64,000 nt of DNA, taken from Rhizophagus irregularis (Eukaryota; Glomeromycota; Glomeromycetes; Glomerales; Glomeraceae). Location: contig NC_089447.1 in the NCBI RefSeq assembly GCF_026210795.1, forward strand, positions 3,908,501 through 3,972,500, given 5' to 3'. Under the pieces are notes generated by a model, which was not told the origin of the DNA, did not search any database, and was given only the letters and a program-made list of their open reading frames with translations. This document shows positions 11,813 to 54,564 of this stretch, in pieces (within the stretch, counting starts at the first letter, position 1; the number at the start of each line of letters is the position of its first letter). Position numbers and translations under genes: made by a program.

Positions 11813-14112
<2,300 letters not shown>

Positions 14113-17100
14113 ATGTTTGGAAAAAAGAAAAAACAACAAAAACAAATTCCTTTGGATGTAAATAATTCGGTTCCATATTCTCAAATCAGGCCGCCTGTTC
14201 ATTCGCCTGGACAAACTCCTAATACGTATAATTCAGGTTATCATGGTAATGCTCAATATGGCCAGCAACATCAGCAACAAAGTTTTTCTCATTCATATTA
14301 CCAAGATTCACATTATCCCCAACAGTATGGTCAACGTCCACAGTCACCAGGATCTAACAATCAGCAATATTTTCCAGATAATTCGGGACATCAGACTCAT
14401 TCAAGAAGCCAATCGCAAGAACATAGTCCACAATCTCAATCGTCCTATAGTTTTCAAGATAGCGCTTCATCAATTACAAGATATAGTTCTGAAAATTCCT
14501 CCGTAAGGTCTTCAGGTGCTTTCTCTAGTGATATACATAATTGGGTAGGCAGTGTTTTTGGTGTAAACAAGGAACCTGCTAAGCCTTCTGATGCAGAAAT
14601 TGAAAATTTGTTTTTGGATTTAATGGTACGAATACGAATTTATTAATACAATTGAATTATCAAAAAATTCTTTAATTATAACTTTTTTTTTTTTGAGTAG
14701 AATAAAAGAGATTTGAAGGTATCTCAGAGAAAAGATATGTTAGCTTTTCCGACAGAAAAAAAATGGATTCTAGTAAAAAATGAAATGATACAAGAAGAGG
14801 TTTTATTGTTATTTAATTTTAATTATTACATATTATTATATTATTATTATTAAATGAATTTTCCTTAAATAGAAATCATCAAAATCAGGCTCGACAAATG
14901 TAATAGCATCTTCACATGATAAAAATTCACCCGAATATTTTCTCAAAAAAATTTTGGATGGTACAATAACTATCAAAGATATGAATTCTCTTAGTGTTTC
15001 CCTAAGAACTTTAACGTTAAAGTGTGTAGAAGTTTGAATAATGTGGCATATGAATTTATAAGTAATTATTTTATTTTGTTCTTTAGGTGGGTGAGGTCAT
15101 TCATTGATGCTAAAGGTCTGGAGGTTCTTGCAAATCGTCTAAACATTATTACACGGAAACCTGTCAAGTTGTATTAGTTTTCTAAATCTTTTTTTAGTAA
15201 TAATAATTCATTTATACTGTATTATTAAAATTTTTTTTTCTTAACTAGGAAAGAATTGGATTTGCAAATGGAGTACGAAGTTATCAAATGTTTAAAGTCA
15301 TTATTAAACAACAGAGTATGTTACAAGAATATTATAGTTGTGTTGGATAATTCAAAAGGATTATTAATTAAACCTTTTTCGCATACATAGTGGGGTGCAC
15401 AAGAAGCTCTGTCACATCCAACATGCATATATAGCATTACATTCTCACTTGTTTCTCCTCAATTAAATACACGGAAACTTGTGGCCGAAGTTCTTTCTTT
15501 TTTCTGTTATTGTGAAATTCCTACTGGTCACAATTTGGTATTGGGAGGTTTTGACCAGCTTATGCAATTTCAAAATGAGCATGGTAGATTTGATGCATGG
15601 ATGAGAGTGTTGGAAAATACAATTGATGGTCGTGGTCGTTTAGGTAGTTTTGTTAATGCAAGTGATGAATACAAAAAAGGCGGTATAGGAATGGATGGTT
15701 CATTAATGGAATATGCGGTAAAATTTTACAACATTTTCTATATGATTAATTTCCAGCAAAACATGATTATTTTACTTTATTCATTTTATATTGTGTTATC
15801 TCTGAATTTCGTTGTTTTATCTTAGCTTGCCAACATGATCTTGGTGAATTCGATTATTGGTGTATGTGATGACGTAGAAATTAGAGTGCACTTAAGGAAT
15901 CAGCTGCACGCATGCGGTTTGTCGCGTATTATCGAAGTGAGGATTTATTACACTCTTAGCGCATTAATTTATAATTTGAATCATCTAATAATTATTTATT
16001 TGATTAGAAAATGAAAACTTTAAATTATGATTTAATTAATCGTCAAATCAGTAAATTTGAACGAGAGAGTGAATTAGATTATGAAGAGGTTTTGGATTAC
16101 TATAATCACCAAATTTTAAAGGATATGACATATCCTTTTATTATCTTGGCTTTTGTTGAATATAACATTAATATTCTATATTTACTAGAATACTATTTTT
16201 TTAAAAAAAAAATTAACAAAATAATTAAGTAATTCCTTAACTCGTATCTTACTGATCCTTATGACGTTTTTAAATGTATTCTTAGTTCAGTTGAAGGAAC
16301 GCGAGCATATGATTTCTTTTTGTCATCGTTGCAACATATGTTGTTAATTCGTGACGACGGCGAGACAAGGTATATTATAAAATTTAGTTTAAAATTATTA
16401 TTAATTTCTCACAAGGAGATTTATTTTATAGAACACGTTATTTTCAACTTATTGATGCTTTAATTACTCAAGTTGTTCTTGATCGGCGAGGACTTGACCA
16501 AGATTGGAGTAATTCAGTTAGCATAACCGTTTCTCAAGTTCTAAGTAAAATGGCTGATCAGGAGAAAGTTGCAACTGCTCTTGAAGAGGCGAAGGAAGCT
16601 AAAGCAGTAGCTGAAAAAGCATTACGTGAAAAACAGGAGTTGCAAAATGAGCTTTCCTTAGGAGCAGGTAAGAATAAATTGAATTATACGACTTTGTTAA
16701 TTTGTATGGGAAGTTGAGGTTAATATATTAATTTTATTGTCACATCGGCTAGATGGAAAGGTTGGTGAATTGAAAAACAAAATTGATTCACTTGAAGATC
16801 TCTTGCGGATTTCACGTCATACCATACAAACTCTACAAACTAAACTTGCTGATCTTGAAGCAAGTTATCTTGAAAAATTGTCTGAGCAAAATGTACAAAT
16901 ACGAGAATTTGAATCCCAGTTGAAAGAGCAACAGCGTGACTCTGATTATTCCTTAGATCGGCAGGAAATGATTAAAAAGTTGGAAAGGATGCAGGAAATA
17001 GCTAAGACAGAAGCTATTTTAGAAGGTCAAGTTTGGACACCATTTGATGGATTCAGGGTTAGTATTATATTTACATTTAATATAATTTATTCCTATATTT

Positions 17101-20100
17101 ATTTGATATGAATATTTGTTTTTATTATAACAAAGATGCCTAATGTCGACCTATATCGATATAACGCTCCTACCAATGTTACAAATGATGCTACTACAAA
17201 TACTGGATATGCTTCAGAGTCAACTGGTTCTCAATTTTATCCATATCAAGAAGGATATGGTCAAGGTTCTCCTGGTGGTTTTGTAATTCCACAACAGCCA
17301 ACACCAAACGCCCCAACACCAAACGCCGGTCCTAATTATAATTCAATTTATGGTAATCCCCCCCAAGATCCAAATAATAATTATGCAAACGCTTCTTCAG
17401 ATGGGGTATTAAAAATGCCAGAGATGCCACCCTTTTTGGATGAGCTTAAAGGGTTACAAAATAAAAGCAACGAAGCGGCTCAAGAACATAATGGTGAAGT
17501 TTTGACGGAAGACCATGAAGAAAGACCTACGGGGAAGCCACAATCTCCACCAATACAGTCACCAGATGCTTCAGAATTACCACAAGAAACATTATTATCA
17601 CCGACAAGTCCAAAACATTCTTCACAATCATCTGAATTACCACCACCGCCATCAAGTTCTGATGGACCACCCTCACCACCTCCCCCACCTCCTCCACCCC
17701 CTCCGCCACCAAGCTCTGATGGACCACCACCACCTCCTCCACCACCTCCTCCACCTTCCTCAAATATTGGTGGACCACCACCACCACCGCCACCACCACC
17801 TCCACCACCACCACCGCCAGGAGCCATGGGAGGTCCACCACCACCACCGCCACCACCCCCACCACCGGGAGTTATGGGAGGTCCACCACCACCACCACCA
17901 CCGCCAGGAGCCATGGGAGGCCCTCCACCACCACCGCCGCCACCAGGATTTAAAGGAGGTCCACCACCACCACCTGGTCCCCCTCTACCAGGAGGACGTT
18001 TTGCTCCTATAGCAAGTAAGCGAAAGGTGTTTTTTTAAAATTTTAATTCAATAGTGACTTATTTACTTTATTAAAATTAGATAATGGCCGTAAAATGCTT
18101 CCTTTCGTTGCCAAAAAGAAGATGAAAGTGTTACAATGGGATAAGATAAATCAATTAACAATAAACAAGACGTTATGGGCAAATTTAAGTGATGATGAAA
18201 TTCTTGAATTGCTCGGCGGGGAAGATGGAGTTTTTAGAACTATTGAAGAATTATTTGCAGCTAAAGAAGTAGCTTTAAGGAGTATGTTTTATTATGAATA
18301 TTTCAACTTATATCAGACTAAATATTAAGTAAATAAATATTAATTAAATTTAAATAGAAAAGAAAGCTGAAAAAAAAGATGAAATAAGCGTTCTTGATTC
18401 TAAACGGGCTCATAATATTAGTAAGTGATTTCTTTCATTAACACTACTTTATCGATATGTTGATTAAAATATCTTAATTCTTATTTGTATACAGATTTGA
18501 TCCTTGGTCGTTATAAAAATTATACATTTGAAGAAATTCATCAAAAAATCATTGAAATGGATGAATTGTTCTGCACAGAGAACCTTCTTAATCAATTAAT
18601 GCAACATATACCAACTGCAGAAGAGGTTAGCAATGGCTAAATGAAATAATATTTCATATTTTTATATTTGTTTTTCTAATTATTATTTTTGTTAATAGCG
18701 TGGTAAATTGTCAGTTTATAAAGACGGACCAGATGAGGTGCTTGAAAATCTAGCTCGACCAGATAAATTTTTTGTTGAAATCATGAAGATTCATCGATAT
18801 CAACAACGTTTGAAATTCATGTATTTCTATATTACTTTTAATGAGAGGTTTAATGGTCTTGATAACGTTAGTATATTAACGAGACAAATAATTGTACTTG
18901 TTATTTGAAACGATTATAATTATATTTGTATCTATTTATTAATTATTTATAGTCCGTTGTCTCGATATTGAATGCTTCAATAGCACTCAAAGAGTCTAAA
19001 CATTTCAAAGAACTTCTAAGCGTAAGTTGTATGAATTTATATTAATTAATGTTTATTACACTAATTGGTTTAATTATAATCTAACCTATGGGCAAATAAT
19101 TGTTAGCTTATTTTATTATTTGGTAATTATATGAATGGAAGTGGTCATAAGGGTGGCGCTTTTGGGTTCAAAATTTCTAGTATTAATAAGGTAAGTAATA
19201 TATTAGATATTTGTTAATATTTTTATAATAAACATCTAATAAATCTAATAAATATCAATGATTTATTGCACTTAGCTTGTTGACACTAAGGCATCTAATA
19301 GTAGTTCAGTTACATTACTTCATTTCCTTTCAAATACTGTTGAAGAAAAGTTACCACATATAGTAGAGTTTGCTGATGATTTAAAAGACACAGGATCCGC
19401 ATGCAGAGGTTGGTTAAAAATTTTTTTTTTATAATTAGTGGTTCTCTTAATATCATTATTAATGTTTGTTTATTTATCTAGTTTCACAACAAGAAATGAC
19501 TAGTGAATATAGGACGATGGGAACACAGTTGAATGACCTCGATTTTGAACTTCAAAAGCACTATATAGATGTTGAATTAGAAAAAAATGATAGATTTCCA
19601 ATTGTAATGAAAGACTTTGTTATTAAGTCAAAACAGAAATTTGAAGAACTTCAAGTTAAATATACTTCTATGGAAGTAGCTTACAAAGATGTAGTAGCAT
19701 ACTTCGGTGAAGATCCAAATAATACTAAACCTGATGAATTCTTCGGAATATTTAAAACTTTCATTGCATCATTTGAGGTTTGTTTTTTATTGCTGTATTT
19801 ATTCCGAACTTATATTATTGTATTCAATTCTAATAACATTTATTTTGCAGAAAGCAAGATATGATAACAAGCAACAGCGTGAACATGAATTACTAGCTCA
19901 AAAACGAAGAGAGGTATTTGTTATTAATTACATTTTTGATTTCTATTTTATATTTATTAATGGTTTTTTGTTTAAAAATAGGAATTGGAGAACCGCAGAA
20001 AAAATGCTCATGTCAATCCAGTCAGAGTCACTCCAACTTCACAAGATTCACAAGATTCTATAGAAGAAAAGCATCTTATGGACAATCTATTGGAAACTTT

Positions 20101-20269
20101 AAGAGATGGAAGAGATTTGGATACTCGATCTCGAAGAAAACGTGGTGAAAGGGAAAAACGTATAGGAAGAAGTATGTCAATTGCATTGAAAGCTGAAAGT
20201 ATATTAAACAGTCTTAAAGAAGATGAACCACCAATGCCGGAAATACCGAAAGAGATTGTAACCAAATAA
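14113..20269 (+). CDS. diaphanous-type formin (Bni1/SepA/For3-like), 22 exons
   Basis: I join 22 exons to 4503 nt (1500 residues): 14113-14625, 14701-14799, 14873-15021, 15087-15167, 15249-15315, 15391-15717, 15826-15936, 16008-16129, 16253-16369, 16432-16667, 16753-17057, 17136-18015, 18081-18281, 18358-18420, 18495-18625, 18699-18866, 18953-19021, 19107-19190, 19276-19408, 19482-19777, 19851-19913, 19982-20269. A Gln/Ser-rich head (1-160) leads into the GTPase-binding and FH3 region (165-560; SWVRSFIDAKGLEVLANRL type), a coiled coil (about 560-700), a proline-rich FH1 (about 877-1000) and FH2 (about 1005-1400, with GNYMNGSGHKGGAFGFKISS). The tail has the autoinhibitory DAD, MDNLLETLRDGRDLDTRSRR. 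It nucleates unbranched actin for polarised growth and septation under Rho control. All introns are GT-AG except the one after exon 8, which is AT-AC. Reading through that intron meets a stop before FH1. Confidence 0.95.
16130..16252 (+). other. U12-type AT-AC intron in the formin gene
   Basis: The 123-base intron starts ATATCCTTTT (16130) and ends TCTTAC (16252). It contains TTCCTTAAC at 16233-16241, the minor-spliceosome branch consensus, with the branch A about 12 bases from the end. Splicing joins GAT ATG AC to T GAT CCT TAT, giving KDMTDPYDVFKCIL, which is the conserved formin reading. No GT-AG pair gives this: the only nearby AG is followed by an in-frame TAA. All three U12 signals match their consensus. 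Confidence 0.9.
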
Positions 20270-28200: not shown

Positions 28201-28498
28201 AAAATCAATTGGTCCGGCGATCATTTCATTTATAATGAATGGTTGTCAAAAATTTTAAGAATGTTTATTCTCAATGAGCGCAAATTCACATGACATCATG
28301 TCACACGATAAACTACTCCAAAAATAGAGTGATAAAAAAAAGTACAAACCCCTTTGTTTACATTCAAATTTGTTTATCTAATAATGAAATCCGATCACTT
28401 GATATACTTTAAAAAGAAATATAAAAAAACGAGACAAATCCTAGGATAAAATTTCAAAGTTGAAGTTTTTTTTTTTTGAAAATAAAAAATAAACAAAA
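25217..28498. other. long region without a supported gene
   Basis: About 3.3 kb of AT-rich sequence. Open frames of 60-100 codons occur (25485-25742 plus, 25582-25280 minus, 27361-27597 plus), but none has a domain, a homolog I know or a convincing composition. The two at 25280-25742 overlap on opposite strands. One MITE-like element (26723-26826) is listed separately. The last few hundred bases are the promoter of the F-box gene at 28499. Confidence 0.4.
26723..26826 (+). mobile_element. MITE-like element, copy 1
   Basis: About 104 bases bounded by TAAAAAATTTTCCAGA on the left and TCCAGAATTTTTTTTTTATA on the right, with two ATGATCA motifs inside. A second copy lies inverted at 31944-32048 with the shared core TTTCTTTCGGAATAAAAACT (variant TTTCTTCGGAATAAAAACT). 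TA dinucleotides border both copies, as for Tc1/mariner-type insertion. Confidence 0.6.
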
Positions 28499-29944
28499 AT
28501 GACTCATCTTACCGCTGATTGCCTTAACGAGATCTTTAGATATTTTGAGGAAGATAAGGCCGTTTTACATTCATGCCTACTGGTTAATCGTTTCTGGTGT
28601 GAAGTTTCTGTTAGAATTTTATGGGAAACCCCCAATGTATCAGTAGAAGTTCTTAATACTCTAATTACTTGCTTACCTGATGAATCTAAAGAATTTTTAT
28701 ATAAAGTTGGAACTATTTTAAAACCAACAATTCCTTGCGAGAAAGAAGTTATGTCGGCTTCAACTTCAAAACATCCACTATTCAATTATGTATCATATTG
28801 TAAAGTTCTTTCAATTTCTAATATCTATTCTATTGTTAAACTTTTCTTTAACAACAAACAGTCAGTTAATACAAAAGAAAATATTAATTTACTAACACAA
28901 GAAATATTCAAAATGTTTATGGGTGTTTCTTCGATAAAAAAATTATCATATACTAATGATGATGTAAAAATTCCAAACAATATAAATTTTGTTAATTTCC
29001 CTGGAACGAAATATTGTTTAAGAAATCTTTCAGAATTTACCTGTACTTCAAACGTTAATTCTGAAGTTTTTAATCAGTTGTCGAAAATATGTCATAATAT
29101 TCAATCATTAAATATTAAGTTTAACAAATATTCTGATAAAGTTTCAGATGGGTTAAAAAATTTAATTTCTTCACAAAATAATTTAAAATCCTTATCATTG
29201 ACTTATTATGAATCAAATCATTGGTCAGATATCATAGATTCGTTGTCAAAACATTCTAATACTTTAATCAAGTTAATCATCAAAGGAAAAGACAATCATT
29301 GGCCATTATCCTTTATAAAAGATTTCAAAAATTTACAAGAACTTGAAATATCGTTAAGTTATGTTAGTAAAGAAGACGATGGGTATTCAGATTTCGAACA
29401 TTTTGAGGATTTACAATATTTTACTTTTCCACACTTAAAAAAATTAAATATTAATCTTCCAAAAAAAGTGGAGCCGATAGTAGTAAAATTTTTGGAGAAC
29501 AATGGAATGAATTTAGTGGAATTTCAAAGTAAATGTAAATCAATAAATCGTGCTGTTAACGATCATTGTCCGAAATTGAAATCATTACATACTACATTTG
29601 GTGAAAAATTTTCAGGATTATTATTAAGAAATATTCTTAAGAAATGCAAAAAATTAGAAAGTATTGAACCATTTCGTCGTGGTTCAAATTTAAGCGGAAA
29701 AGAACTTTTGAAAATTGTAGATGAAAATTCACCGAAGAATTTTCATGAATTAAATCTACATAATTATTATGAGGAATTAGACGCTGAAGATTTGAAATCA
29801 TTTTGTATTAGTTTGGAAAAGCGTAACCCACTAAAATTACTTACTTTAATTATTAAAAATGGTAGTTCTAGAAAAAATGATGAAAAGGAGGCAATTATTA
29901 ATGAATATGAAAGGAAGGGTGTAATTAAAATTTTAAAGATGTAA
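28499..29944 (+). CDS. F-box protein with LRR-like C-terminal part
   Basis: A 481-residue single-exon frame starting ATGACTCATCTTACC. Residues 4-45 form the F-box (LTADCLNEIFRYFEEDKAVL, then HSCLLVNRFWCEVSVRILWE), which binds SKP1 in SCF ubiquitin ligases. The rest has leucine-rich stretches at irregular spacing (LRNLSEFTCTSNVNSEVF, NIQSLNIKF, NLKSLSLTY, LKKLNINLP, CPKLKSLHTTF, CKKLESIEPF), as in degenerate LRR substrate-binding domains. It belongs to the greatly expanded F-box family of this lineage. The next gene (30255) is a close copy, including the 3' flank (TAAGTTGTATATAT then AATAAAATTAAATAAATTAA in both). The target is unknown. Confidence 0.85.
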   Translation: MTHLTADCLNEIFRYFEEDKAVLHSCLLVNRFWCEVSVRILWETPNVSVEVLNTLITCLPDESKEFLYKVGTILKPTIPCEKEVMSASTSKHPLFNYVSYCKVLSISNIYSIVKLFFNNKQSVNTKENINLLTQEIFKMFMGVSSIKKLSYTNDDVKIPNNINFVNFPGTKYCLRNLSEFTCTSNVNSEVFNQLSKICHNIQSLNIKFNKYSDKVSDGLKNLISSQNNLKSLSLTYYESNHWSDIIDSLSKHSNTLIKLIIKGKDNHWPLSFIKDFKNLQELEISLSYVSKEDDGYSDFEHFEDLQYFTFPHLKKLNINLPKKVEPIVVKFLENNGMNLVEFQSKCKSINRAVNDHCPKLKSLHTTFGEKFSGLLLRNILKKCKKLESIEPFRRGSNLSGKELLKIVDENSPKNFHELNLHNYYEELDAEDLKSFCISLEKRNPLKLLTLIIKNGSSRKNDEKEAIINEYERKGVIKILKM

Positions 29945-30254
29945 ATTTACGCATGTTTTTAAGTTGTATATATATTATTATTATGTTGAAATATCAAATA
30001 TGCTTTTTAAGTGATTGTGTGTATAAATAAAATTAAATAAATTAAGTATCATACAAAAATCTCGTTTTCTTTATTTGTGGCGTGAGAATTTCTAATTTTA
30101 GTAACACAACAAAGATATCTGTACTTTGTAATACGACTTAATAAAGTAATAAATATGGTTATAAATGACTTTACGATTTTAGCTTTAGAAAAACTGAAAT
30201 TTCACGCAAAATATATATATATATTTTTTTTTTTAAAAAAAATAGAAATAAAAA
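29945..30254. other. spacer between tandem F-box copies
   Basis: 310 bases of AT-rich sequence: the 3' flank of the first copy and the promoter of the second. No other feature seen. Confidence 0.4.
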
Positions 30255-31752
30255 ATGTCTCAACTTGATGCTGATTGTCTTAACGAGATCTTTGGATGCT
30301 TAGAAAAAGATAAGGCCACTTTATATTCATGCCTACTAGTTAATCGCTTTTGGTGTCAAGTTTCTGTTAGAATTTTATGGAAGGAGCCCAATGCATCGAC
30401 AAAAGTTCTTAATACTTTAATTATTTGTTTACCTGATGAATCTAAAAATTTCTTATATAACAATGGAATTATTTTAGCACCAAATTTGAAATCTTTATAT
30501 GCTCCTGACGACTATTTGTGTAAGAAGGAAATTATCTCGGCTCCAACTTGGAAACCTCCATTATTCAACTACGTATCATATTGCAAAGTTTTATCAATTT
30601 ATAAAATTCATTCTATTGTTAAGCTTTTTCTTACTAACAATCAACAGTCAATTAATACAAAAAAATATATTAATTTATTAACACAAGAAATATTAAAAAT
30701 GTTTATGAGCGTTTCTTTGTTGAACAAATTATCATATACTTGTGATGTAGATTATAGTTCAAAAATAAAAGATTTGAAAATATCAGATAGAATAACTTTC
30801 GTTCATTCTTCTGGAGCGAGATATTGTTTAACAAATCTTTCAGAATTTACTTGTACTTCAAACATTAATTCTGAAGTTTTTAATCAGCTATCAAAAATAT
30901 GTCATAATATTCAATCATTAAATATTAGGTTTAACAAATATGCTGATACAGTTTCAAATGGGTTAAAAGATTTAATTTCTTCACAAAATAATTTAAAATC
31001 CTTATCAATTTATTATGAATCATATCATTGGGCAGATATCATACCTTCGTTGATGAAACATTCTGATACTTTAATCAAGTTAAGCATCAAAGGGGAAGAA
31101 AATCATTGGCCATTATCTTTTATAAAAGTTTTCAATAATTTACAAGAACTTAATATATCGTTAAGTTTCATTAATGAAGACGAAGATTTCGAATATTTTA
31201 AAGATTTACAACATTTTACTTTTCCACATTTAAGAAAATTAAATGTTAATCTTCCAACAAAATTTGAACCGATAGTAGTAAAATTCTTAGAGAATAATGG
31301 AGAGAATTTAGAAGAATTTCAAAGTAGATGTAAATGTAAAAATTCATCAATAAATCGTGCTGTTAACGATCATTGTCCGAAATTGAAATCATTACATACT
31401 ATATTTGGTGAAAATTTATCAGGATTATTATTAAGAAATATTTTTAAGAAATGCAAAAAATTAGAAAGTATTGAAATATTTCGTCGTGGTTCAAATTTAA
31501 GCGGAAAAGAACTTTTGAAAATTGTAGCTGAAAATTCACCGAAGAATTTTCATGAATTAAAATTTCATAATTATTATGCGGAATTAGACGTTTGAAGATT
31601 TGAAATCCTTTTTTATTAGTTGGAAAAAGCGTAACCCACAAAAATCACTTACTTTAAATTTTAAAAATGTTGGTTCTAAAAAAAATAATGAAATGAAGGA
31701 AATTATTAATGAATATGAAAAGATTGGCGTAATTAAAATTTTAAAGGTGTAA
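30255..31752 (+). CDS. F-box protein, tandem copy, 3' frameshift
   Basis: The open frame 30255-31595 gives 446 residues: F-box at 3-45 (LDADCLNEIFGCLEKDKATL, SCLLVNRFWCQVSVRILWKE) and LRR-like repeats. It is close to the gene at 28499 along its whole length. Near 31590 it has GACGTTTGAAGATTTG where the sister has GACGCTGAAGATTTG. That one extra base ends the frame at once. The other frame then carries the expected tail (EDLKSFFISWKKRNPQKSL) to a stop at 31752. So the protein is either cut by about 50 residues or the base is an assembly error. The F-box itself is intact. It differs from its sister by small insertions, such as about 18 residues near residue 80. Confidence 0.75.
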
Positions 31753-33151: not shown

Positions 33152-34804
33152 TTATAAACCTGAGGCAATAAAAGGTACTTTTTGAAGCTGAGAGTGCATC
33201 AGGCCTAAAGAGTCTTGAAAACTTTGTCGAGGAGAATTATAAACCGGAGCGTATATCGGCTGTGTAGTGGGATCAGGGCCATCTAAGACAATAATTTCAT
33301 CCTCTGTAATTACAGGTCTGTCGGCACGTCTGGTCCTAGAGCTACGATTATGAATAGAAATACGTTTGTCCTGAACGGTAATGTTATTGTTCCCATTTGA
33401 TGACGCGTTCACATCTGTCTTTCCATAGGTGGTTTTTGAAAAGAATAATAATTTGCATTAGAATTTTGGATCCCAATCGTACACTATCAGCTCGTGAGAG
33501 TTTAAGATTTTTCTTCAGCTGTTGTACTAATCTTTGCCTGCATGGCGTCAGAGGGTAGACTTGTATATTTAAATGAGTCCGGCAAAGTGCCAAGGAGTGA
33601 GTATATGGTGCATGATCTAATGTGAGGAGGTAGTTTTTGAAATTCATCAGTGTTATTAAGGAAATGAATGAGTTCGGATCTAAAATGAGTTCTGATCCGT
33701 CGTTTGTGTGCAAGTTGATAAATGATTTGTTTCTTCATGCTTATGACAAAATTGATATTTGAGGTCGCTATACAGAGCGGGTTTTTGTTGCTTCAAACGC
33801 GTGGCTATAGGTAGTTCCTTATGAAGGGCTTTGATAATAAACGACCAAAGGCTGTTGCGTTTGGTGGAAGCACATTTAAAAAACTTGATTTGTTTGATGG
33901 TAGTCCAAGTTGTGTGCCAATCGTAATCGAATCGTTTATCAACAAAACTCGAGACCAAGCACCATAGTTCCTAAAATGTAATGCTTTATGAATGAATTTC
34001 CGAATATTCTGTTCAATAGAAGTGCGATTATATTGTGGCATAAACCTAAATTCATTACTGCCATGGGTAAACCTATTATCATAAGAACTATCTAAATCTA
34101 AACTAAGTTTACGAAATCATCTGCTTTATCGTTCCCAACGTCACCACTATGTCCCTTGACCTTATGCATGAAATAGTGTAATTTCTTCTCCGTCAGCCAT
34201 CTATACCGCCTAGCATTCTTATGTTGTAGAACATTGTTGATAGAGTGAATTGCTGATTGACTGTCTGTATAAATATGGATAATGCTATTAGGAGGACTAA
34301 CTAGCAATGCTAAAAATATGCCCATCAATTCCGCACGGGTAGAAGGCCAATCTTGTATGCAAGCTCCAATCTGTGTATTACTATGTGTTTCTATAAAAGC
34401 AGCCCCCCCATTGAAACGTCCACAACGTTTCCATCCAGTACTTGACCAGGGTGCGAGGGTAAAATCAGCTACCATCTGTATAAAATTGTAACGTATGACG
34501 GTGCGCTAAATTTGATGAGGCAGAGGGTAGTTGATCTTTCAGGATCGAGTCCGGGATCCAACGATCGATCCATAAGTCATGAGGTTGGGTTATATTAATT
34601 ATCGGTGTGGGGGTAAATTCGGCTGAAGTGTGGTTGTTGGTTCGTCTGAAAACCATACAATCGGGGATAGCAATCCGTGTATTCCTTGCGAGTCTTGAAC
34701 ACTTCTACAATTGACAGTTGAGAACATTGTACCAATCTGGTGGTATTGCCATCCATGATAATACCGGGAAGTCCATTTTGTGTTGAATAGATGTATGGCT
34801 GCAC
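33152..34804 (-). mobile_element. decayed LINE-type retrotransposon, RNase H and C-terminal domain
   Basis: Minus-strand frames from 34804 down to 33152 read an RNase H with its acidic and His landmarks: FYTDGS, RAELMGIFLALLVSP, IYTDSQSAIHSI and KVKGHSGDVGNDKADD. Further on come a linker (MPQYNRTSIEQNIRKFIHKA), a zinc-knuckle-like CHKHEETNHLSTC and a basic tail. RNase H followed by such a knuckle is the C-terminal end of I/Tad-like LINE ORF2 proteins. The reverse transcriptase is missing, so the copy is 5'-truncated, and it is split into six or more frames. It is a different family from the one at 20900-22653, with a different RNase H and knuckle. Confidence 0.7.
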
Positions 34805-35544: not shown

Positions 35545-37164
35545 CTAGTAAAAATTATACATATTTAGAAAAAATTGGTCATCAGTTTCAAATTTTTTTA
35601 TAATACCCAACTTTTTGTATCTTGCTATCATTTCACCAGTTTTGATATCTAACTTAAAACTCTCTTCACTAATTATTAATGAAATTGGATTTTGTGGTTT
35701 ACGAGCTTTCCAACCAATAAAAAATGATCGCAAGTCATTTGAACCTAAAGTCACATGACTATGAAATTTTAATTCACGAAAACTTTCGGGTGAATATTTA
35801 GCAACAGCTTCTAACAGTTTTTTTCCTCCCAGAAAACAATGACCACATATACCTAGAAAACTTTCTAATTGTTGGCAACTCTCAAAAATTAATTTTAACA
35901 TTTCTATTTCATTTCTTGGAAATATAGTATGTAATGATTTTAAGTTTGGACAGAATTCAGTTATGGCTAGATGTAATGAATTATCATTCCTATTCACATA
36001 TAATTCTTCCAAATTCCTTCCATTATTTTCTAAAAATTTAATCAACATATTAACTTCTGGACAAATAACTAATTTTAAAATTCGTAAGTGTGGAAAAGTG
36101 ATATATTGTATTTCCTTAAAGTCAGCATGTCTATATTCAAGTAATAAATTTTTTATTGTGTTTGAATGTTTTGCTAATAAAGATGCAATCTTTGGCCAAT
36201 CTTGATCATTATGATGAATTTTATGATCTTCATCATCGTCGTCGTCGTCGTCGTAGTCATCATCATCATCATCATTGTTATTAAGTCTAATACTATACGA
36301 ATACACATAAACTTCATCATCGTCGTTGTCGTCGTCGTCGTCGTTGTAGTCATCATCATCATCATCGTCGTCGTCACCATCATCAACATCTTTATCATCA
36401 CCAATATTATGAAAATAATCACCATAATAATAATCACCATATTTTATAAATGATACGGATATCAAATTTTTTTGTGATAAAAACAATTCATTTAACTCCT
36501 TTGAAATACAACAAAAATGTACTCTAAGTGATTGTATGTTGTGACATATTTGAGACAGTTGTTGAAAAAATTCAGAACTAATGTCTGAGCCGCATCTCAA
36601 ATCTGAAAGATTATTTAAACAATCTTTTGCTCCAGGAAAACTAATAAAATTTGAAATAAGCTTAAAATAATCAGAAACATTGTTATCACGACTATCTTCT
36701 ATTAAACAATAGGCCAATTTTTTTAAAGAAGCATGATTCATAAACATTCTTAAAATTTCATGTGATATCAAGTAGTTTGTTTTTGAATTTCCAGTAAGAA
36801 TCTTGTTATATGAGACATTACCGATTATGAGGTGTGGAATTGAAAGAACTTTGATAAATGATACATAATTAAATAATGGAGATCTTTGATTTGTAGTTGG
36901 GATAGAAATTCCATTTTCGAATAAAAAATCTATTGACTCGTTAGGAAGAAAAGCGACCAGAGTCTCAAATACTTTTAATGATACATCCAAATCGTGTGGT
37001 GAGGAGTCAACAAATTTAAAAATCCAAATGTTCTTCCATAAAATTTCAACTGAAGCTCTGCACCAAAAACGATTTACTAGTAAACAAGAATGTAAATTAA
37101 CTTTATCTTCTTCTAAACACTTAAAAATTCTGTTAAGACAATCAACAGTAAGTTGAGAAGACAT
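35545..37164 (-). CDS. F-box protein with Asp-rich insertion
   Basis: A 539-residue single-exon frame. The F-box is at residues 4-50 (LTVDCLNRIFKCLEEDKVNL, SCLLVNRFWCRASVEILWKN), followed by LRR-like leucine-rich stretches (CLNNLSDLRCGSDI, NIQSLRVHF, LRILKLVICPEV, CPNLKSLHTIF, CQQLESFLGI). Unlike its relatives (about 460-480 residues), it has an insertion of about 70 residues in the middle (coordinates about 36205-36425) made of two Asp runs parted by EVYVYSYSIRLNNN. The DNA there is GAT/GAC (ATC/GTC) repeat, so the runs probably grew by slippage. The frame stays open. As a SKP1 adaptor it would recruit an unknown target to an SCF ligase. A 9-base minisatellite lies just upstream of the ATG. 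Confidence 0.85.
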   Translation of the reverse strand: MSSQLTVDCLNRIFKCLEEDKVNLHSCLLVNRFWCRASVEILWKNIWIFKFVDSSPHDLDVSLKVFETLVAFLPNESIDFLFENGISIPTTNQRSPLFNYVSFIKVLSIPHLIIGNVSYNKILTGNSKTNYLISHEILRMFMNHASLKKLAYCLIEDSRDNNVSDYFKLISNFISFPGAKDCLNNLSDLRCGSDISSEFFQQLSQICHNIQSLRVHFCCISKELNELFLSQKNLISVSFIKYGDYYYGDYFHNIGDDKDVDDGDDDDDDDDDYNDDDDDNDDDEVYVYSYSIRLNNNDDDDDDYDDDDDDDEDHKIHHNDQDWPKIASLLAKHSNTIKNLLLEYRHADFKEIQYITFPHLRILKLVICPEVNMLIKFLENNGRNLEELYVNRNDNSLHLAITEFCPNLKSLHTIFPRNEIEMLKLIFESCQQLESFLGICGHCFLGGKKLLEAVAKYSPESFRELKFHSHVTLGSNDLRSFFIGWKARKPQNPISLIISEESFKLDIKTGEMIARYKKLGIIKKFETDDQFFLNMYNFY

Positions 37165-37171
37165 TGTGTTT

Positions 37172-37243
37172 TGAGAAACTTGAGAAATTTGAGAAACTTG
37201 AGAAGTTTGAGAAGCTTGAGAAATTTGAGAAGTTTGAGAAATA
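37172..37243. repeat. 9-bp minisatellite, eight units, in F-box 5' leader
   Basis: TGAGAAACT TGAGAAATT and six more units, each TGAGAA plus three varying bases, in an unbroken row. It starts 7 bases upstream of the ATG of the F-box gene at 37164, so it is probably in its 5' UTR. Confidence 0.85.
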
Positions 37244-39911
37244 TTTTTTTTTTACAATATTATAAAAAGGAGAGAGAAAAAAAAAGGTTTAAAATGATGA
37301 AAATGATGCGAATAGTTAATTTAATTAACTTTAATTGGTCACATGTTGATTTTAGCTATATTTGTAGAACAAAATGATAATGATGAGTAATGGCACAGCT
37401 ATATACTAACACGTGAAAATAAGTGATGCGACGCGATGACTCACCAAATATATTAATTCATTGCTTCTTAAGGACAGGGAAACATGTCTGATTCTTTAAA
37501 AAGTACTATTTGTTTCGTTACTTATTTTTGTAGAATGGGATTTAATATTTCTTTTTCTTTTTTTTTATAGGTATGATGCTAATAATGTGATTAATATAAA
37601 TAAGGTCACGGTTCCTAATAATTCATGATGATTTTTATTTGGTAATCTCACGGATGATTATTTAAAAAGATGGATAAATTAATATTAGAATAGAATAAAA
37701 AGTCCATCATTATATCATTATTAATTGCTATTGATCCGCCATGATCCGTGAAATAACTGGTTTATACCACACAATGATTTTCACGACGCAGCCGCGCAAA
37801 TCAATGATTCCATAGTTCCCCGTGAAATACTATTATATAATACTCCAAATGTAGGTAGTTGTGAACGTGCTATTCATCGAATTTATATATTGACACCTTT
37901 CTCACGACTAACCTGTTATTCCATTTCGGCTTAATCCCAACACTAAAGAGTCTTTTTACATAAATAGTATGATGTTGCTGTCAAACCAATACTGTAAAGA
38001 CGTTAACTTATGATAAACATCTTGAGCGAAAGAAATAAAATAAATTTTACTATTGGTCCCGTGAAACGATGTGTTAGCAGTTAATTTAGGCCGGAATGAA
38101 ATTTAAACTTTTACAAAGACTAAAGTCGAATTTTTCTTAGCTGAAATTAAGTAATTGACACTTCGATTATATGGGTAAATTTAAATTTTAACTATTTTAA
38201 TTATTTTATGATCAACAAAATTTAATATATCAGACAAATACTGTAGCCTTACGCCCGATCAAATAGGAGTAGCTCCGTAATAAAAATCATTAAAAATTCC
38301 TACTATTTAAAATCGCCATCGCGAAAAGCCGTTTTTAACAATTGGAAAACAATAATTACTAAGAATTTGATTACAATTATAGCGTAAAATTTATTTGGAG
38401 AATTTATTAACATTTTTTTATATCATTTATTTTGTACACAAAAAATTTCCACTAATGATTTTTACCATGCGGTTAATACTATGTCCTGATTGTAATAGGG
38501 TTCTACCTTTATTTTTCAATATCAAAAATAGTTTCAAGGATTCTGCTTTAATATTGTTATGATAATGTCCAATCTAAACTCGAAGTTAATATTTCAAAAC
38601 AACTATCTAAATAGAACTCAACTCAACCCACAAGACAAAACCAGACATACATTTTATAATTATTTGTGCGTCCCCAGCAATTTACTGTTTCTTATTTTCA
38701 GCGTTTACTTCTCTGAGCACGTCTCTAATTTCACTTTTGAATCTTTCAGGTACTGTATCTTCAATCCTGCCTCTGACATACGACAATTTGGTCATTCTTT
38801 TCTAATCAAAGAGTAGCTTGGTCCTCTTTAACTTTACATTTAGGATAGCCCGGGCTTCAGTACGCGTTGTAACACCGGCTTCACAAGATGAACCACCACA
38901 TTTAACAACAGTAGATTGCACTCCTATAATTGTAAGAGAATGAAACTATAAAATTTTCCTTTTTATTTAATATGAAGAACGTAATAAAATGATATTCTTA
39001 TTTTTTTATATTTTATCCGATACACATTTATAAATGGGCAAAATAGATAAGGCAGATATATAATTTGAATGAAACAAAATTAGCCGGGTTAGTAATGAAT
39101 ATATGATCGTAAATGGAATACTATTGGTAGCGAAATATGGTTTACATTCTTCGGGATCTAGGGTTAGCCAACTTTAAAAGAGATTTTTTATTTTTATTTT
39201 TATTACACAACGTGAACAAAGTAGCACTACAAAATACAAAGATTTTAACACTAAACCGAAAGTAATTCGAAAATTGAATACCAAGTCGCTACGAGGGCGA
39301 TGTCACTTTGGTGGAAAATCGAAACAAAGAAACGAGAATGTTCTAAGAACACCGCCGGAATCCAAGGTGAGAAGGAAGAATAAGATGTAATAAAAATTAT
39401 ATTTCAATAAAAGAATGTAAAAATTATAAATCATAAAAAAAAGAAAATAAATCTATATTATCGAAAAGTAAATCGTCTCTATGTGATTCCCAAGAACTCG
39501 AGTGTAAAAAATTACTAGATGTCCACCGTATATGAGCGGTATCGTCAAAAGGTTCCTTACGGTGGTTGTAAGGGAACCAGAGAATCATACCAAAAAATGA
39601 TAAGTCGTGTTCGTTCACGTGATTTTTATATTAACTTTGTGACAAATAAATTTTCATTCCAAAATCCAAACTAACAGGGGCGACAAATATTTTAATGTCA
39701 TCCGATTTTCACTACAGTAAAACCAAACAAAAAAAATTTAGAATGATACTCCAGAAAATATATCACACAATATAAATCATTTGTTCAGGTTTTCTTAACT
39801 CCTGTTGTCGACTTTCGACAATAACTGAGAAAGTTAGGGCTAAAGCAGGCTCTAGCTAGGGACCGGTATTGGAAGCTATTATTAATTCTCACCAAGGAAT
39901 TTCCGTAGATT
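37244..39911. other. 2.7-kb region without a supported gene
   Basis: AT-rich. It contains the promoter of the F-box gene at 37164. Frames at 38559-38816 (plus) and 39618-39424 (minus) are open for 64-85 codons but have no features I recognise. Confidence 0.4.
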
Positions 39912-43096: not shown

Positions 43097-43484
43097 TATA
43101 TATTATTAGATCAGGTAATCAAAATTATGACATCATATATCTTTTAATTTGAAGTTAACTATAATATTATTTATTACCTATTATTTTAATTATAGATAAC
43201 AATCAAGTACTTTGAATTTACATTATGATATTATAATCTTATTAGAGAATAGTAATTTATAATAATCAGTATTTGTATAATATTACAGAAAAGTGACTTA
43301 TAGTAATTAGTACTTTACATATATTAGATTTAAATTAAATTCAAATGCAACTATTAAAGTAACTTTGTGCATAATTAGAAGTTAATTATAATATTTTAAC
43401 TTATTATTTTATTTACAGAAAAGTAATTTATAATTATCAGCACCTGTTATAAACTTGTACTTTAAGGTTATTATAGTTACTTGT

Positions 43485-43850
43485 TATTTTACTGATAATC
43501 AGTATTTTTATTTGAGCCAAATTAAATTTAAATACAGCTATTAAAGTAACTTTATGTTATCTTACTGATAATCAGTATTTTTATTTGAGCCAAATTAAAT
43601 TTAAATACAGTTATTAAAGTAACTTTATGTTATCTTACTGATAATCAGTATTTTTATTTGAGCTAAATTAAATTTAAATACAGCTATTAAAGTAACCAGC
43701 TATTAAAGTAACTTTTATTTTACTGATAATCTATTTTTATTTGAGCTAAATTAAATTTATTATATACAGCTATTAAAATAACTTATGTCATCTTACTGAT
43801 AATCAGTAAATTAAATTTAAATACAGCTATTAAAGTAACAAAGTAACTTT
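43485..43850. repeat. ~73-bp tandem repeat, about five units
   Basis: ACTGATAATCAGTATTTTTA recurs at 43491, 43564 and 43637 (period 73), each followed by TTTGAGCCAAATTAAATTTA and CAGCTATTAAAGTAACTTTA. Two further shortened or lengthened units follow, up to about 43850. Confidence 0.85.
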
Positions 43851-44030
43851 ATGTATAATTTTAAAGAATTATAATATATTATTTTATTTCAGAAGAAATA
43901 TCGGTATTTTTATTATATCTGAATACAACTATCAAAGTAACTTTATGTATAATTTTAAAGAATTATAATATAATATTTATTTACAAAAAAAAGTGATTAT
44001 AATAATCAATACTTCGAATATGAGTTAAAT

Positions 44031-44800
44031 TCAAATTCAGCAAACAAAGTTGTGGCTTTGTGATTAGTAATTATATTTGAAGTTAGATATAATATTACTA
44101 ACTATTATTTTATTGACAGAAAAAGTAACCTATAATTGTCAATACTTGTCATCAAAACCATGAGCTTGTGATTAGTAATATATTATATAATCTTAATTAT
44201 AATATTATTAGTTATCTGTTATTTTATTAACTTATATAGTAATAATCAGTATTTTTAAATCTGAATTAAATTTAAAATACAGCTATCAAAGTAACTTTAT
44301 ATATAATTTTAAAGAATTATAATATACTATTTTATTGACAGAAAAGTAATTTATAATAATCAGTACTTTAAATAAAATAGAATTCAAATTCAGCAAACAA
44401 AGTTGTGGCTTTGTGATTAGTAATTATATTTGAAGTTAGATATAATATTACTAACTATTATTTTATTGACAGAAAAAGTAACCTATAATTATCAATACTT
44501 GTCATCAAAATCATGAGCTTGTGATTAGTAATACTTAATTATAATATTATTAGTTATCTGTTATTTTATTTCAGAAGAATAACTTATATAGTAATAATCA
44601 GTATTTTTAAATCTGAATTAAATTTAAAATACAGCTATCAGAGTAACTTTATATATAATTTTAAAGAATTATAATATACTATTTTATTGACAGAAAAGTA
44701 ATTTATAATAATCAATACTTTAAATAAAATAGATGTGAGTTAAATTTAAATACAGCAAACAAAGTTGTGGCTTTGTGATTAGTAATTGTATTTGAAGTTA
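44031..44800. repeat. ~353-bp higher-order duplication within the satellite
   Basis: CAGCAAACAAAGTTGTGGCT starts at 44038, 44391 and 44753 (spacings 353 and 362). The first two are followed by nearly identical long blocks including GACAGAAAAAGTAACCTATA and CATGAGCTTGTGATTAGTAA. The near-identity of the first pair suggests recent unequal exchange. Confidence 0.8.
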
Positions 44801-45355
44801 GATAATATCAAAACCTATTAGTTTATTTACAGAAAAGTAGCTTATAATAATCAGTACTTCATATACATTAGGTTTGAATTAGATTCAAATGCAATAATTA
44901 AAGTAACTTTGTGCACAATTCGAAGTTAGTTATAATATTTTAACTTATTATTTTATTTACAGGAAAGTAACTTATATTAATCAGTACTTTACAGAAATTG
45001 CCGGAAAATTCAAATTTACTTTACAGCTGCTATCAAAGATCATGATCTTTGTAATGATTTAATATTTGATGACATTAATTACTATCTTCTTATCTACAGA
45101 AAAAAATCAATTAATCTAAAATTATATCAAAGTATAGATCATTCAAGATTATATGTCATATTAATATATAGATTTTAATAAATACTAAACTATAATCTGA
45201 CTAATCTGTTAATTATGATTTTACATTCACATGACTTCTGTTTCAACACTGTTATAATATTATAAGTAATATAAATAATATAAAAAGGACTACTCTCTTT
45301 ATGACTCATTTTTTTTAATTTTTTTTTTTAGCCCTTTTTATAAAATCTTTCAAAA

Positions 45356-46804
45356 ATGAATAGTAAAATGCCCTCCCAACTTCCCGTACTTCCCATCGAT
45401 TGTCTCAAGAAAATTTTTGAATGTTTAGATGATAATAAAGTCGCTTTACATTCATGTTTATTAGTTAGTCGTCTTTGGTGTAGAGTCTCTGTTGAAATAT
45501 TATGGAGAAACATTTGGGATACTGTACTTCAATTATATCAACTGGACGCGTTATCAAAAATTTTTAATACTTTAATCGCTTGCCTTCCTAATGAATCAAA
45601 AGAACTTTTATTTAACAAAGGTGTTTTTATTCCAACTCCAACTTCGAAATTTCCATTATTTAATTATCCATCATTTTGCAAAGTTCTTTCAATTCTTGAT
45701 CTAATGATAATCGATGATGAATTTAAAAAAATTACCACAAATCATGAATCTTTTATTTTACTAAGAGAAAGAAACTATTTGATAGCACAAGAAATGTTAA
45801 AAATGTTTATGAAAGAAATTCCTTCTTTAAAAAAACTGGTTTATTACTCCGATATTTATGGCAGCAAAATTCCGAATTTTATTAATTTTTCCGGTGCAAG
45901 AGATTGTTTAAAAAATCTATCAGAAATGAGATGTAGCTCGAACATCAATTCTGAATTTTTTTATCAATTATCTAAAATATGCCATAATATTCAATCATTA
46001 ACTATAGAATTCAGTATTACTAATTTGGATGGATTAAATGATTTGATTTTTTCACAAAATAGTTTAAAATCTTTATCAGTTATGCGGTGTATTGATTATG
46101 ATGATAAAGAGGATATAGATTGCGCAAAGATCGTACCTTCATTAACAAAACATGCAAACACACTGACAAAATTATTTTTACAAGGAATATCAAAATTATC
46201 ATTTTTGCCAAAATTTACAAATTTACAAGAACTTGATTTATCATCAGGATTTGAAGATTTTAAAGAATTACAATACGTTATTTTTCCATACTTAGAAATT
46301 TTAAAATTATATTATGGATATTCGGAATTTGAAATGTTGATTAAATTTTTAGAAAATAATGGAAGGAATTTGAGGGAATTTAATGTATATGGATGTAATA
46401 GTAATAATTCGTTAAATTTAGCTATAGCAAAATTTTGTCCGAATCTGAGATCACTATATACTCAATTCAAATTTGATGAAATAGAATCATTAGCAGTTAT
46501 CTTTAGTAGTTGTCAACAATTAGAAAGCTTTAAAACTTTATGTGATAAACCATATTTTGAAGGAAAGAAATTATTGGAAATAGTTGCTAAATATTCACCC
46601 AAGAATTTTCATGAATTGACATTATGTAATTATGTAAAATTAAGAAAAGATGATTTGGAATCGTTTTTTATTAATTGGAAAACCCGTATACCTCAAAAAT
46701 CACTTTCTTTTATTGTTAATGATAGTAAATTTATAAAAAATAGCAAAAATAAGAAAATAATTAGAAAATATAAAAATTTGGGTATCATTAAAAAATTTGA
46801 ATAA
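45356..46804 (+). CDS. F-box protein with LRR-like C-terminal part
   Basis: A 482-residue single-exon frame; a second ATG four codons in (45368) is an equal start candidate. F-box at residues 9-58 (LPIDCLKKIFECLDDNKVAL, SCLLVSRLWCRVSVEILWRN). LRR-like stretches follow: CLKNLSEMRCSSNINSEFF, NIQSLTIEF, NLQELDLSS, LEILKLYYGY, CPNLRSLYTQF, CQQLESFKTLC. The tail is KNFHELTLCNYVKLRKDDL ending IIKKFE. It is of the same subgroup as the genes at 35545 and 53179 and the pseudogene at 40415 (LWRNIW and FEMLIKFLENNGRNL). The SKP1-binding face is intact; the substrate is unknown. It lies directly right of the satellite field. Confidence 0.88.
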   Translation: MNSKMPSQLPVLPIDCLKKIFECLDDNKVALHSCLLVSRLWCRVSVEILWRNIWDTVLQLYQLDALSKIFNTLIACLPNESKELLFNKGVFIPTPTSKFPLFNYPSFCKVLSILDLMIIDDEFKKITTNHESFILLRERNYLIAQEMLKMFMKEIPSLKKLVYYSDIYGSKIPNFINFSGARDCLKNLSEMRCSSNINSEFFYQLSKICHNIQSLTIEFSITNLDGLNDLIFSQNSLKSLSVMRCIDYDDKEDIDCAKIVPSLTKHANTLTKLFLQGISKLSFLPKFTNLQELDLSSGFEDFKELQYVIFPYLEILKLYYGYSEFEMLIKFLENNGRNLREFNVYGCNSNNSLNLAIAKFCPNLRSLYTQFKFDEIESLAVIFSSCQQLESFKTLCDKPYFEGKKLLEIVAKYSPKNFHELTLCNYVKLRKDDLESFFINWKTRIPQKSLSFIVNDSKFIKNSKNKKIIRKYKNLGIIKKFE

Positions 46805-51110: not shown

Positions 51111-51148
51111 AGTTACTATTATTCTTAAATATCATATTCATTTATTTC

Positions 51149-51700
51149 GCTTGATTCCATCCCGCCAGGCAGGATCGAGACTGAACATCAGATAAGCTCG
51201 ATGGGTCATCTGTGTCCACGGTTGCCTCGAAGCTTAACATCAGACAAGCTCGATGGGTCATCTGTGTTCTGGAGAGGCTAGTGTCAGGTCGGCTTGAAAG
51301 TATTGAATACAGAATTTCGCTTGATTCCGTCCCGCCAGGCAGGATCGAGACTGAACATCAGACAAGCTCGATGGGTCATCTGTGTTCACGGTTGCCTCGA
51401 AGCTTAACATCAGACAAGCTCGATGGGTCATCTGTGTTCTGGAGGGGCTAGTGTCAGGTCGGCTTGAAAGTATTGAATACAGAATTTCGCTTGATTCCGT
51501 CCCGCCAGGCAGGATCGAGACTGAACATCAGACAAGCTCGATGGGTCATCTGTGTCCACGGTTGCCTCGAAGCTTAACATCAGACAAGCCCGATGGGTCA
51601 TCTGTGTTCTGGAGGGGCTAGTGTCAGGTCGGCTTGAAAGTATTGAATACAGAATTTCGCTTGATTCCATCCCGCCAGGCAGGATCGAGACTGAACGACT
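51149..51700. repeat. 170-bp tandem satellite, 3.2 units, GC-richer than its surroundings
   Basis: CTTGATTCCRTCCCGCCAGG starts at 51149, 51319, 51489 and 51659, exactly 170 apart. Units differ at only a few bases. Each unit contains the phrase ACATCAGACAAGCTCGATGG then GTCATCTGTGT twice, so the unit is itself a double of about 65 bases. The four overlapping frames of 79-115 codons here are repeat artefacts: 170 is not a multiple of three, so each unit shifts frame. Confidence 0.92.
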
Positions 51701-53178: not shown

Positions 53179-54564
53179 CTATGACCTATTTATATATTGT
53201 TCGGGGTTTTCGTCTTCTTCAAATTTATTAATAACATCCAAGGCTTTGTATTTTCTAATTAATTTCTTGATTTTGTTATTAATTACAATACCATCACCAT
53301 CAAAGATAAATGAAAATGGTCTTTTTGATACGCGATCTTTCCAACTAATAAAAAATGATTCCAAATCTTTTGAATTTAATTTTGCATGATGTAAATTTAA
53401 TTTATGAAAATTTTTAGGAGAATATTTAGCAACAATTTCTAACAGTTTTTTTCCTCCTAATGAATTATGACAAGAATTTCTAATACTTTCTAATTGTTGA
53501 CAATTATCAAAAATCATTATTAATTCTTCTATTCCTTTAAATTCTGTATATAATGATTTTAACTTTGGACAATATTTAGCTATAGCTAAATTTATTGAAT
53601 TTTTAATAACTGAATTCACACTATCACTTAGTAGTACAAGTTCTTCTAAATTCTTTCCATTATTTACTAAAAATTTAGTCAATATATCATCAATATTAAC
53701 TGGATAAAAATATAATAATAAAATTCGGAAGTTTGAAAATATAATTTTAGTAAAAATGGATGGTGGTGATATTCCACTTAAAAATAATTTTGTTAAAGTA
53801 TTTGAATGCTTTGTTAATGTGAAATAATTAAATATATCATCAAAATTACTCTCATTACAACTATTATACCTGCTGAATGATATGGATTCTAAATTATTTT
53901 GAGAAAGAATAAGAATCAAATCTTTTATTCCAACTGAAGCAGTTTCTTCAAATATTATAACTAAATAATTTATATTGTGACATATTTTAGATAGTTGAAG
54001 AAAAAATTCAGAATTCATGAATGAGTAACATTTCAATTCTGAAAGATTTTTTAAACAATCTTTTGCTCCAGGAAAATTAATAAAATTTAAAAAATTATAA
54101 TTTTTATAAAAATCATCATAGCAACCATAATAATAATAATAATATTCCATAAAACTAAAATCCATTTTTTCTAAAGAAGAAATTTGTCTCATAAACATTT
54201 TCAATATTTCTTTGGTTATCAAATAGTTTTTTGGATTATCAGATAAAATTTCAATTTCGTTATCTTCAATTAATAGATATCGAATTGAAAGAACTTTGCA
54301 AAATGATGCATAATTAAACAATGGAGGTTTTGAGATTGGAATTGAGGTGACTCCATTATTAAGTAGAAAGTCTTTTGATTCGTTAGGAAGACAAGCGATT
54401 AGAGTCCTTATTTTTTCAAATTCTCGAATATTTCTCCATAATATTTCAACGGAAATTCTGCACAAAAGACGATTTACTAGTAAGCAAGAATGTAAAGTAA
54501 CTTTGTCTTCCTCTAAGCACTCGAAAATTTGGTTAAGACAATCAATAGGAAGTGTTGAAATCAT
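53179..54564 (-). CDS. F-box protein with LRR-like C-terminal part
   Basis: A 461-residue single-exon frame. F-box at residues 3-46 (LPIDCLNQIFECLEEDKVTL, SCLLVNRLLCRISVEILWRN). Leucine-rich stretches follow (CLKNLSELKCYSFMNSEFF, NLEEL, CPKLKSLYTEF, CQQLESIRNSC) and the family tail KNFHKLNLHHAKLNSKDLES. In the F-box, the Trp of the family's RxWC is Leu (RLLC), a change at a normally aromatic position that could weaken SKP1 contact. A Tyr-rich run (MEYYYYYYGCYDD) is coded by an ATA/ATT repeat. Same subgroup as 45356, on the opposite strand. The start is the first ATG after a stop; an upstream run of AT-rich sequence is the likely promoter. Confidence 0.85.
   Translation of the reverse strand: MISTLPIDCLNQIFECLEEDKVTLHSCLLVNRLLCRISVEILWRNIREFEKIRTLIACLPNESKDFLLNNGVTSIPISKPPLFNYASFCKVLSIRYLLIEDNEIEILSDNPKNYLITKEILKMFMRQISSLEKMDFSFMEYYYYYYGCYDDFYKNYNFLNFINFPGAKDCLKNLSELKCYSFMNSEFFLQLSKICHNINYLVIIFEETASVGIKDLILILSQNNLESISFSRYNSCNESNFDDIFNYFTLTKHSNTLTKLFLSGISPPSIFTKIIFSNFRILLLYFYPVNIDDILTKFLVNNGKNLEELVLLSDSVNSVIKNSINLAIAKYCPKLKSLYTEFKGIEELIMIFDNCQQLESIRNSCHNSLGGKKLLEIVAKYSPKNFHKLNLHHAKLNSKDLESFFISWKDRVSKRPFSFIFDGDGIVINNKIKKLIRKYKALDVINKFEEDENPEQYINRS

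Follow-up and report, generated by a model that had tools for sequence, protein, structure and literature searches.

From its sequence, intron 8 of a diaphanous-related formin gene of Rhizophagus irregularis is very probably (about 0.94) a minor-class (U12-type) AT-AC intron, located in the FH3 (DID) region. Its anatomy and its junction can be read directly from the DNA, and we infer a working minor spliceosome in the source organism.

The formin gene and its intron 8

The gene lies at positions 14113-20269 on the forward strand of the window, that is, the whole 64-kb stretch of DNA that was analysed, which has a GC content of 29.4%. Our hand-built model has 22 exons and encodes 1500 amino acids with no internal stop, and each of its 21 introns was placed by the reading frame, by the dinucleotides at the splice sites and by matches to domains. 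A Pfam scan of the translation identified Drf_GBD (PF06371, residues 157-343, 2.8e-50), Drf_FH3 (PF06367, residues 368-557, 1.4e-49) and FH2 (PF02181, residues 1013-1383, 1.4e-92), and the poly-proline runs of a proline-rich FH1 sit between FH3 and FH2. Because of these three domains and the poly-proline runs, the gene product is assigned as a diaphanous-related formin. There was no Pfam match to DAD in the translation at E 0.001, and the stretch MDNLLETL...RRKRGEREKR is one that we take to look like a DAD. In searches for relatives, one FH2 exon gave four pattern matches in virus contigs, none of them confirmed, and 307 amino acids of the GBD-FH3 region gave 11 in prokaryote contigs, again none confirmed, and no matches in virus contigs.

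Twenty of the 21 introns in the hand model are of the GT-AG type, with lengths of 62-108 nt and a median of 74.5 nt. Intron 8 (16130-16252, forward strand) is the single AT-AC intron and, at 123 nt, the longest. It is in phase 2, between exon 8 (16008-16129, ending AAG GAT ATG AC) and exon 9 (16253-16369, beginning T GAT CCT TAT GAC), and splicing it out gives K-D-M-AC/T-D-P-Y-D-V-F, with the slash at the junction. The U12-type consensus is RTATCCTTT for the donor and TTCCTTRAY for the branch site, the branch A is usually about 10-15 nt from the acceptor, and there is no long pyrimidine tract ahead of the acceptor. The donor of intron 8, ATATCCTTT (16130-16138), and its branch site, TTCCTTAAC (16233-16241), each match with 0 mismatches, and the donor is also present at 16130 in the form ATATCCTTTT that the preliminary description of this DNA had used. 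The second branch A (16240) is 12 nt from the last intron base, and the AC acceptor (16251-16252) closes the motif CTTAC. Thus, the U12-type AT-AC intron that had been proposed at these positions has its donor, branch site and acceptor all in place, with the 12-nt spacing as claimed. None of the other 20 formin introns comes within two mismatches of both motifs. The pyrimidine fraction at -15 to -4 is 0.67 in intron 8 and 0.42-0.83 in the others, so this measure does not separate them.

In U12-type introns, U11 and U6atac base-pair with the donor, and U12 with the branch site. For intron 8, we suggest that U11 and later U6atac would pair with ATATCCTTT, and that U12 would pair with TTCCTTAAC, leaving one A bulged. 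Removal of the intron would then join AC to T and give K-D-M-T-D-P-Y-D-V-F. Within the 64-kb window, there were no Rfam matches at the gathering threshold and no hits in a tRNA scan.

If intron 8 is retained, the frame meets a TAA at codon 524. The preliminary description was right that such a stop exists, but had placed it at 16228-16230, two bases off its position at 16230-16232 (forward strand). It was also right that retention cuts the protein ahead of FH1 and FH2. An unspliced mRNA would either be translated as far as this stop, giving 523 residues, or be degraded. The 523-residue product would keep the GTPase-binding part, have an incomplete FH3, and lack both FH1 and FH2.

The rest of the window contains several other features. 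A polyubiquitin reading frame (11813-13096, reverse strand) adjoins the formin gene on the opposite strand and is built from 5.5 copies of a 228-bp unit with 91% matches. Five long reading frames (28493-29944, 30252-31595, 35545-37251, 45344-46804 and 53179-54651) form a local family on both strands with similar starts, DCLxxIFxxxxxxKxxLxSCLLVxRxxC..., and are presumably F-box/LRR-like; the sole member scanned, 28493-29944, had no Pfam match. Together with the low GC content of the window, this family may point to Rhizophagus or a relative. There is a tandem array at 51144-51696 (170-bp unit, 3.3 copies, 98%), and adjoining tandem arrays with units of 73-83 bp and 353 bp lie at 43482-44859. 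A reading frame with an RNase H domain (34098-34505, reverse strand, 3.3e-10) is probably a transposon remnant.

Motif pair, intron class and choice of junction

Taken singly, the two motifs are not rare in the window, where RTATCCTT was observed 6 times against 7.4 expected and TTCCTTRAY 3 times against 4.9 expected. The evidence resides in pairing, spacing and coding junction combined. The pair test called for an exact RTATCCTT, then an exact TTCCTTRAY, with AC or AG close behind, and the first background was a first-order Markov sequence of 12.8 Mb (200 x 64 kb, one strand). Pairs within 1 kb occurred 9 times in this Markov sequence, which equals 0.045 per 64-kb strand, and pairs within 200 nt at 0.015 per strand. 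The real window has one pair on the forward strand and none on the reverse strand. We also used a soft scoring matrix, whose weights were set by hand from the U12 consensus. With this hand-set matrix intron 8 scores 28.3, the next best site on either strand of the window scores 19.0, and none of 60 second-order simulated strands reached 28.3, their top score being 26.1.

Some AT-AC introns are removed by the major (U2-type) spliceosome, and AT-AC termini by themselves do not fix the class. "Other AT-AC introns" are tabulated besides the U12 ones for several species in PMC2846911. Excision of intron 8 by the major spliceosome is nevertheless very unlikely, since both U12 motifs are exact and properly spaced and the pair exceeds the simulated background. 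We therefore favor the U12-type assignment.

The choice of junction was assessed over five dinucleotide types, allowing donors anywhere in 16020-16299, acceptors no further along than 16359 and a minimum intron length of 40 nt. The frame is left open by 135 junctions (68 AT-AC, 45 AT-AG, 12 GT-AC, 10 GT-AG and 0 GC-AG). In local alignment to a stretch of mouse mDia1, the U12 pair 16130-16252 ranks first of the 135 with a score of 244, followed by 16113-16241 with 236, which is without a U12 donor. The alignment places ILKDMTDPYDVFKCIL over IRMEMDDFGEVFQIIL ungapped, and the closest gap is a single residue, 8 residues ahead of the split codon. The Pfam Drf_FH3 match of the spliced form reaches 139 bits and is continuous across the junction, while retention of intron 8 reduces it to 73.6 bits and ends it at profile position 120. 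The restored KDMTDPYDVF reading of the preliminary description is therefore upheld, both by its rank among the 135 junctions and by the unbroken FH3 match.

Another reading of this stretch is that the real intron is a GT-AG one elsewhere in it and that the AT-AC reading arose by chance, and ten GT-AG junctions do leave the frame open. The best of these ten in the mDia1 alignment, 16229-16285, scores 206 versus 244, leaves 33 codons from the AT-AC intron in place and loses 11 codons of exon 9, and its FH3 match drops to 119.5 bits, broken into two stretches. The remaining nine score 155-181, each removing exon sequence on both sides. We consider this reading extremely improbable, and the GT-AG choice at the intron 8 junction was dropped on account of its lower mDia1 score and broken FH3 match.

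A predicted hairpin over the donor and the question of regulation

The donor's exact reverse complement, followed by three bases, makes up the end of exon 8, where the sequence reads AAAGGATAT GAC and then ATATCCTTT. The exonic arm AAAGGATAT (16118-16126, forward strand) and the donor (16130-16138) can thus pair perfectly into a 9-bp hairpin that takes in the whole donor and has the last three exon 8 bases, GAC (16127-16129), as its loop. The 21-mer is predicted to fold at -6.7 kcal/mol at 37 C and -10.0 kcal/mol at 20 C. The mean predicted pairing of the intron 8 donor is 0.93 at 37 C and 0.94 at 20 C, compared with 0.24-0.74 and 0.41-0.79 for the other 20 formin donors, which makes it the most paired of the 21 by prediction. 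When the same donor is placed after the other 20 exon ends, its pairing is 0.26-0.69. Across the window, 75 of 63880 positions have a perfect 9-nt upstream complement at a loop length of 3-30 nt, and 4 of 63880, the intron 8 site included, have one with a loop of exactly 3 nt; the hairpin test was picked after the repeat had been noticed.

Other comparisons speak against a function of this hairpin. Among 1000 synonymous recodings of the exon 8 end, equal pairing was found in 55 and the arm was kept in 78, with a mean pairing of 0.56, so the codon choice carries no clear sign of selection. Folding at -6.7 kcal/mol or better is found for 22 of the 6135 21-nt windows of the formin gene; such hairpins are therefore rare, not unique. 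The overall fold of 16080-16270 is ordinary (z -1.31, with 21 of 200 shuffles folding as well), and thus the local hairpin alone is noted. A degenerate pattern of the donor hairpin had no matches in the viral contig collection.

It could be that the donor is deliberately masked, in that the hairpin of AAAGGATAT and ATATCCTTT would keep U11 and U6atac away until warmer conditions or an RNA chaperone, for example U11/U12-31K, melt it. If so, full-length formin would depend on temperature or chaperone level. We consider such masking quite unlikely. U11/U12-31K is a plant minor-spliceosome protein that melts RNA (PMC3422263), and therefore a donor hairpin need not block splicing. As a selected or functional feature the predicted hairpin is an unproven lead, though it provides a concrete and cheaply testable candidate for the control of a minor intron.

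The preliminary description went further and suggested that minor splicing may be a switch on formin dose. In such a switch, minor splicing would be the limiting step, perhaps made slower by the hairpin, and would set the amount of full-length formin. Retention does truncate the formin before FH1/FH2, and no other donor among the 21 is predicted to be as strongly paired as that of intron 8. In addition, U6atac-limited switches have been proposed in human cells (PMC3728624), and the minor-intron genes of R. irregularis are moderately higher expressed in more proliferative cell types (PMC10639083). However, most introns with a stop truncate the product when retained, and 55 of the 1000 synonymous recodings above reach the same pairing. 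Minor splicing in R. irregularis is also not better with proliferation, and retention is significantly, if modestly, higher in proliferating cells rather than lower (PMC10639083). In the same study, the increase of the minor machinery with proliferation does not exceed that of the major machinery (3.5x versus 5x), and Larue and Roy give caveats on their own proliferation index. The window offers no support for a dose switch, and we regard it as quite unlikely.

Comparison with known minor introns

In R. irregularis, 205 minor introns were reported by Larue and Roy (2023), drawn from annotated introns and amounting to 0.272% of the 75,377 annotated (PMC10639083); the preliminary description had expected standard annotation to overlook a junction like that of intron 8. 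They also reported all four minor snRNAs, orthologues of 65K, 35K, 25K and 20K, and a phase order of 1 > 2 > 0 for the minor introns (PMC10639083). Intron 8 shares with these introns the U12 donor and branch motifs and the phase bias away from 0, and its phase 2 agrees with the published order. Since minor introns and the snRNAs are published for this fungus, a minor intron in its formin gene is to be expected and phase 2 is ordinary. Thus, intron 8 is a well-supported and mostly expected example. The word "formin" is absent from the main text of PMC10639083, neither "formin" nor "diaphanous" occurs in the main text of PMC2846911, and no U12 intron in a fungal formin is named in the titles or abstract starts among the open-licence matches listed. 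Intron 8 stands as a clear-cut AT-AC minor intron, and the gene that carries it is a polarity gene of a fungus outside Dikarya.

A special role of minor splicing in polarity genes, as had been put forward earlier, is not supported by the published data. The minor-intron genes of R. irregularis are enriched for vesicle and intracellular transport and for localization, and this functional enrichment is much weaker against control genes with orthologues in both species (PMC10639083).

A minor intron is carried by 100% of diaphanous-related formin genes, according to section 7 of a review (PMC6865273), a section that gives no position for it. A word search of the available text of PMC8533766, PMC4667643, PMC6717393, PMC7696919, PMC9870134, PMC8034651 and PMC10853781 did not find the minor-intron position of the animal DIAPH genes. 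If the animal formin intron shares the codon position of intron 8, a single site would have retained its splice class ever since fungi and animals shared an ancestor, and intron 8 would predate the fungi/animal split.

Three further known systems are close to the one described here. The U6atac-limited switches of Younis et al. 2013 (PMC3728624) are alike in that a gene has a single minor intron next to many of the major class; they differ in that they were proposed for human cells, whereas the window shows no regulated retention. Rhizopus oryzae and Phycomyces blakesleeanus are, like R. irregularis, early-branching fungi with U12 AT-AC introns (PMC2846911), though their approximately 4 and 20 U12 introns are far fewer than those of R. 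irregularis (cited in PMC10639083). The human diaphanous-related formins, in the minor intron database of Olthof et al. (cited in PMC6865273), belong to the same gene family as the gene described here and likewise contain a minor intron.
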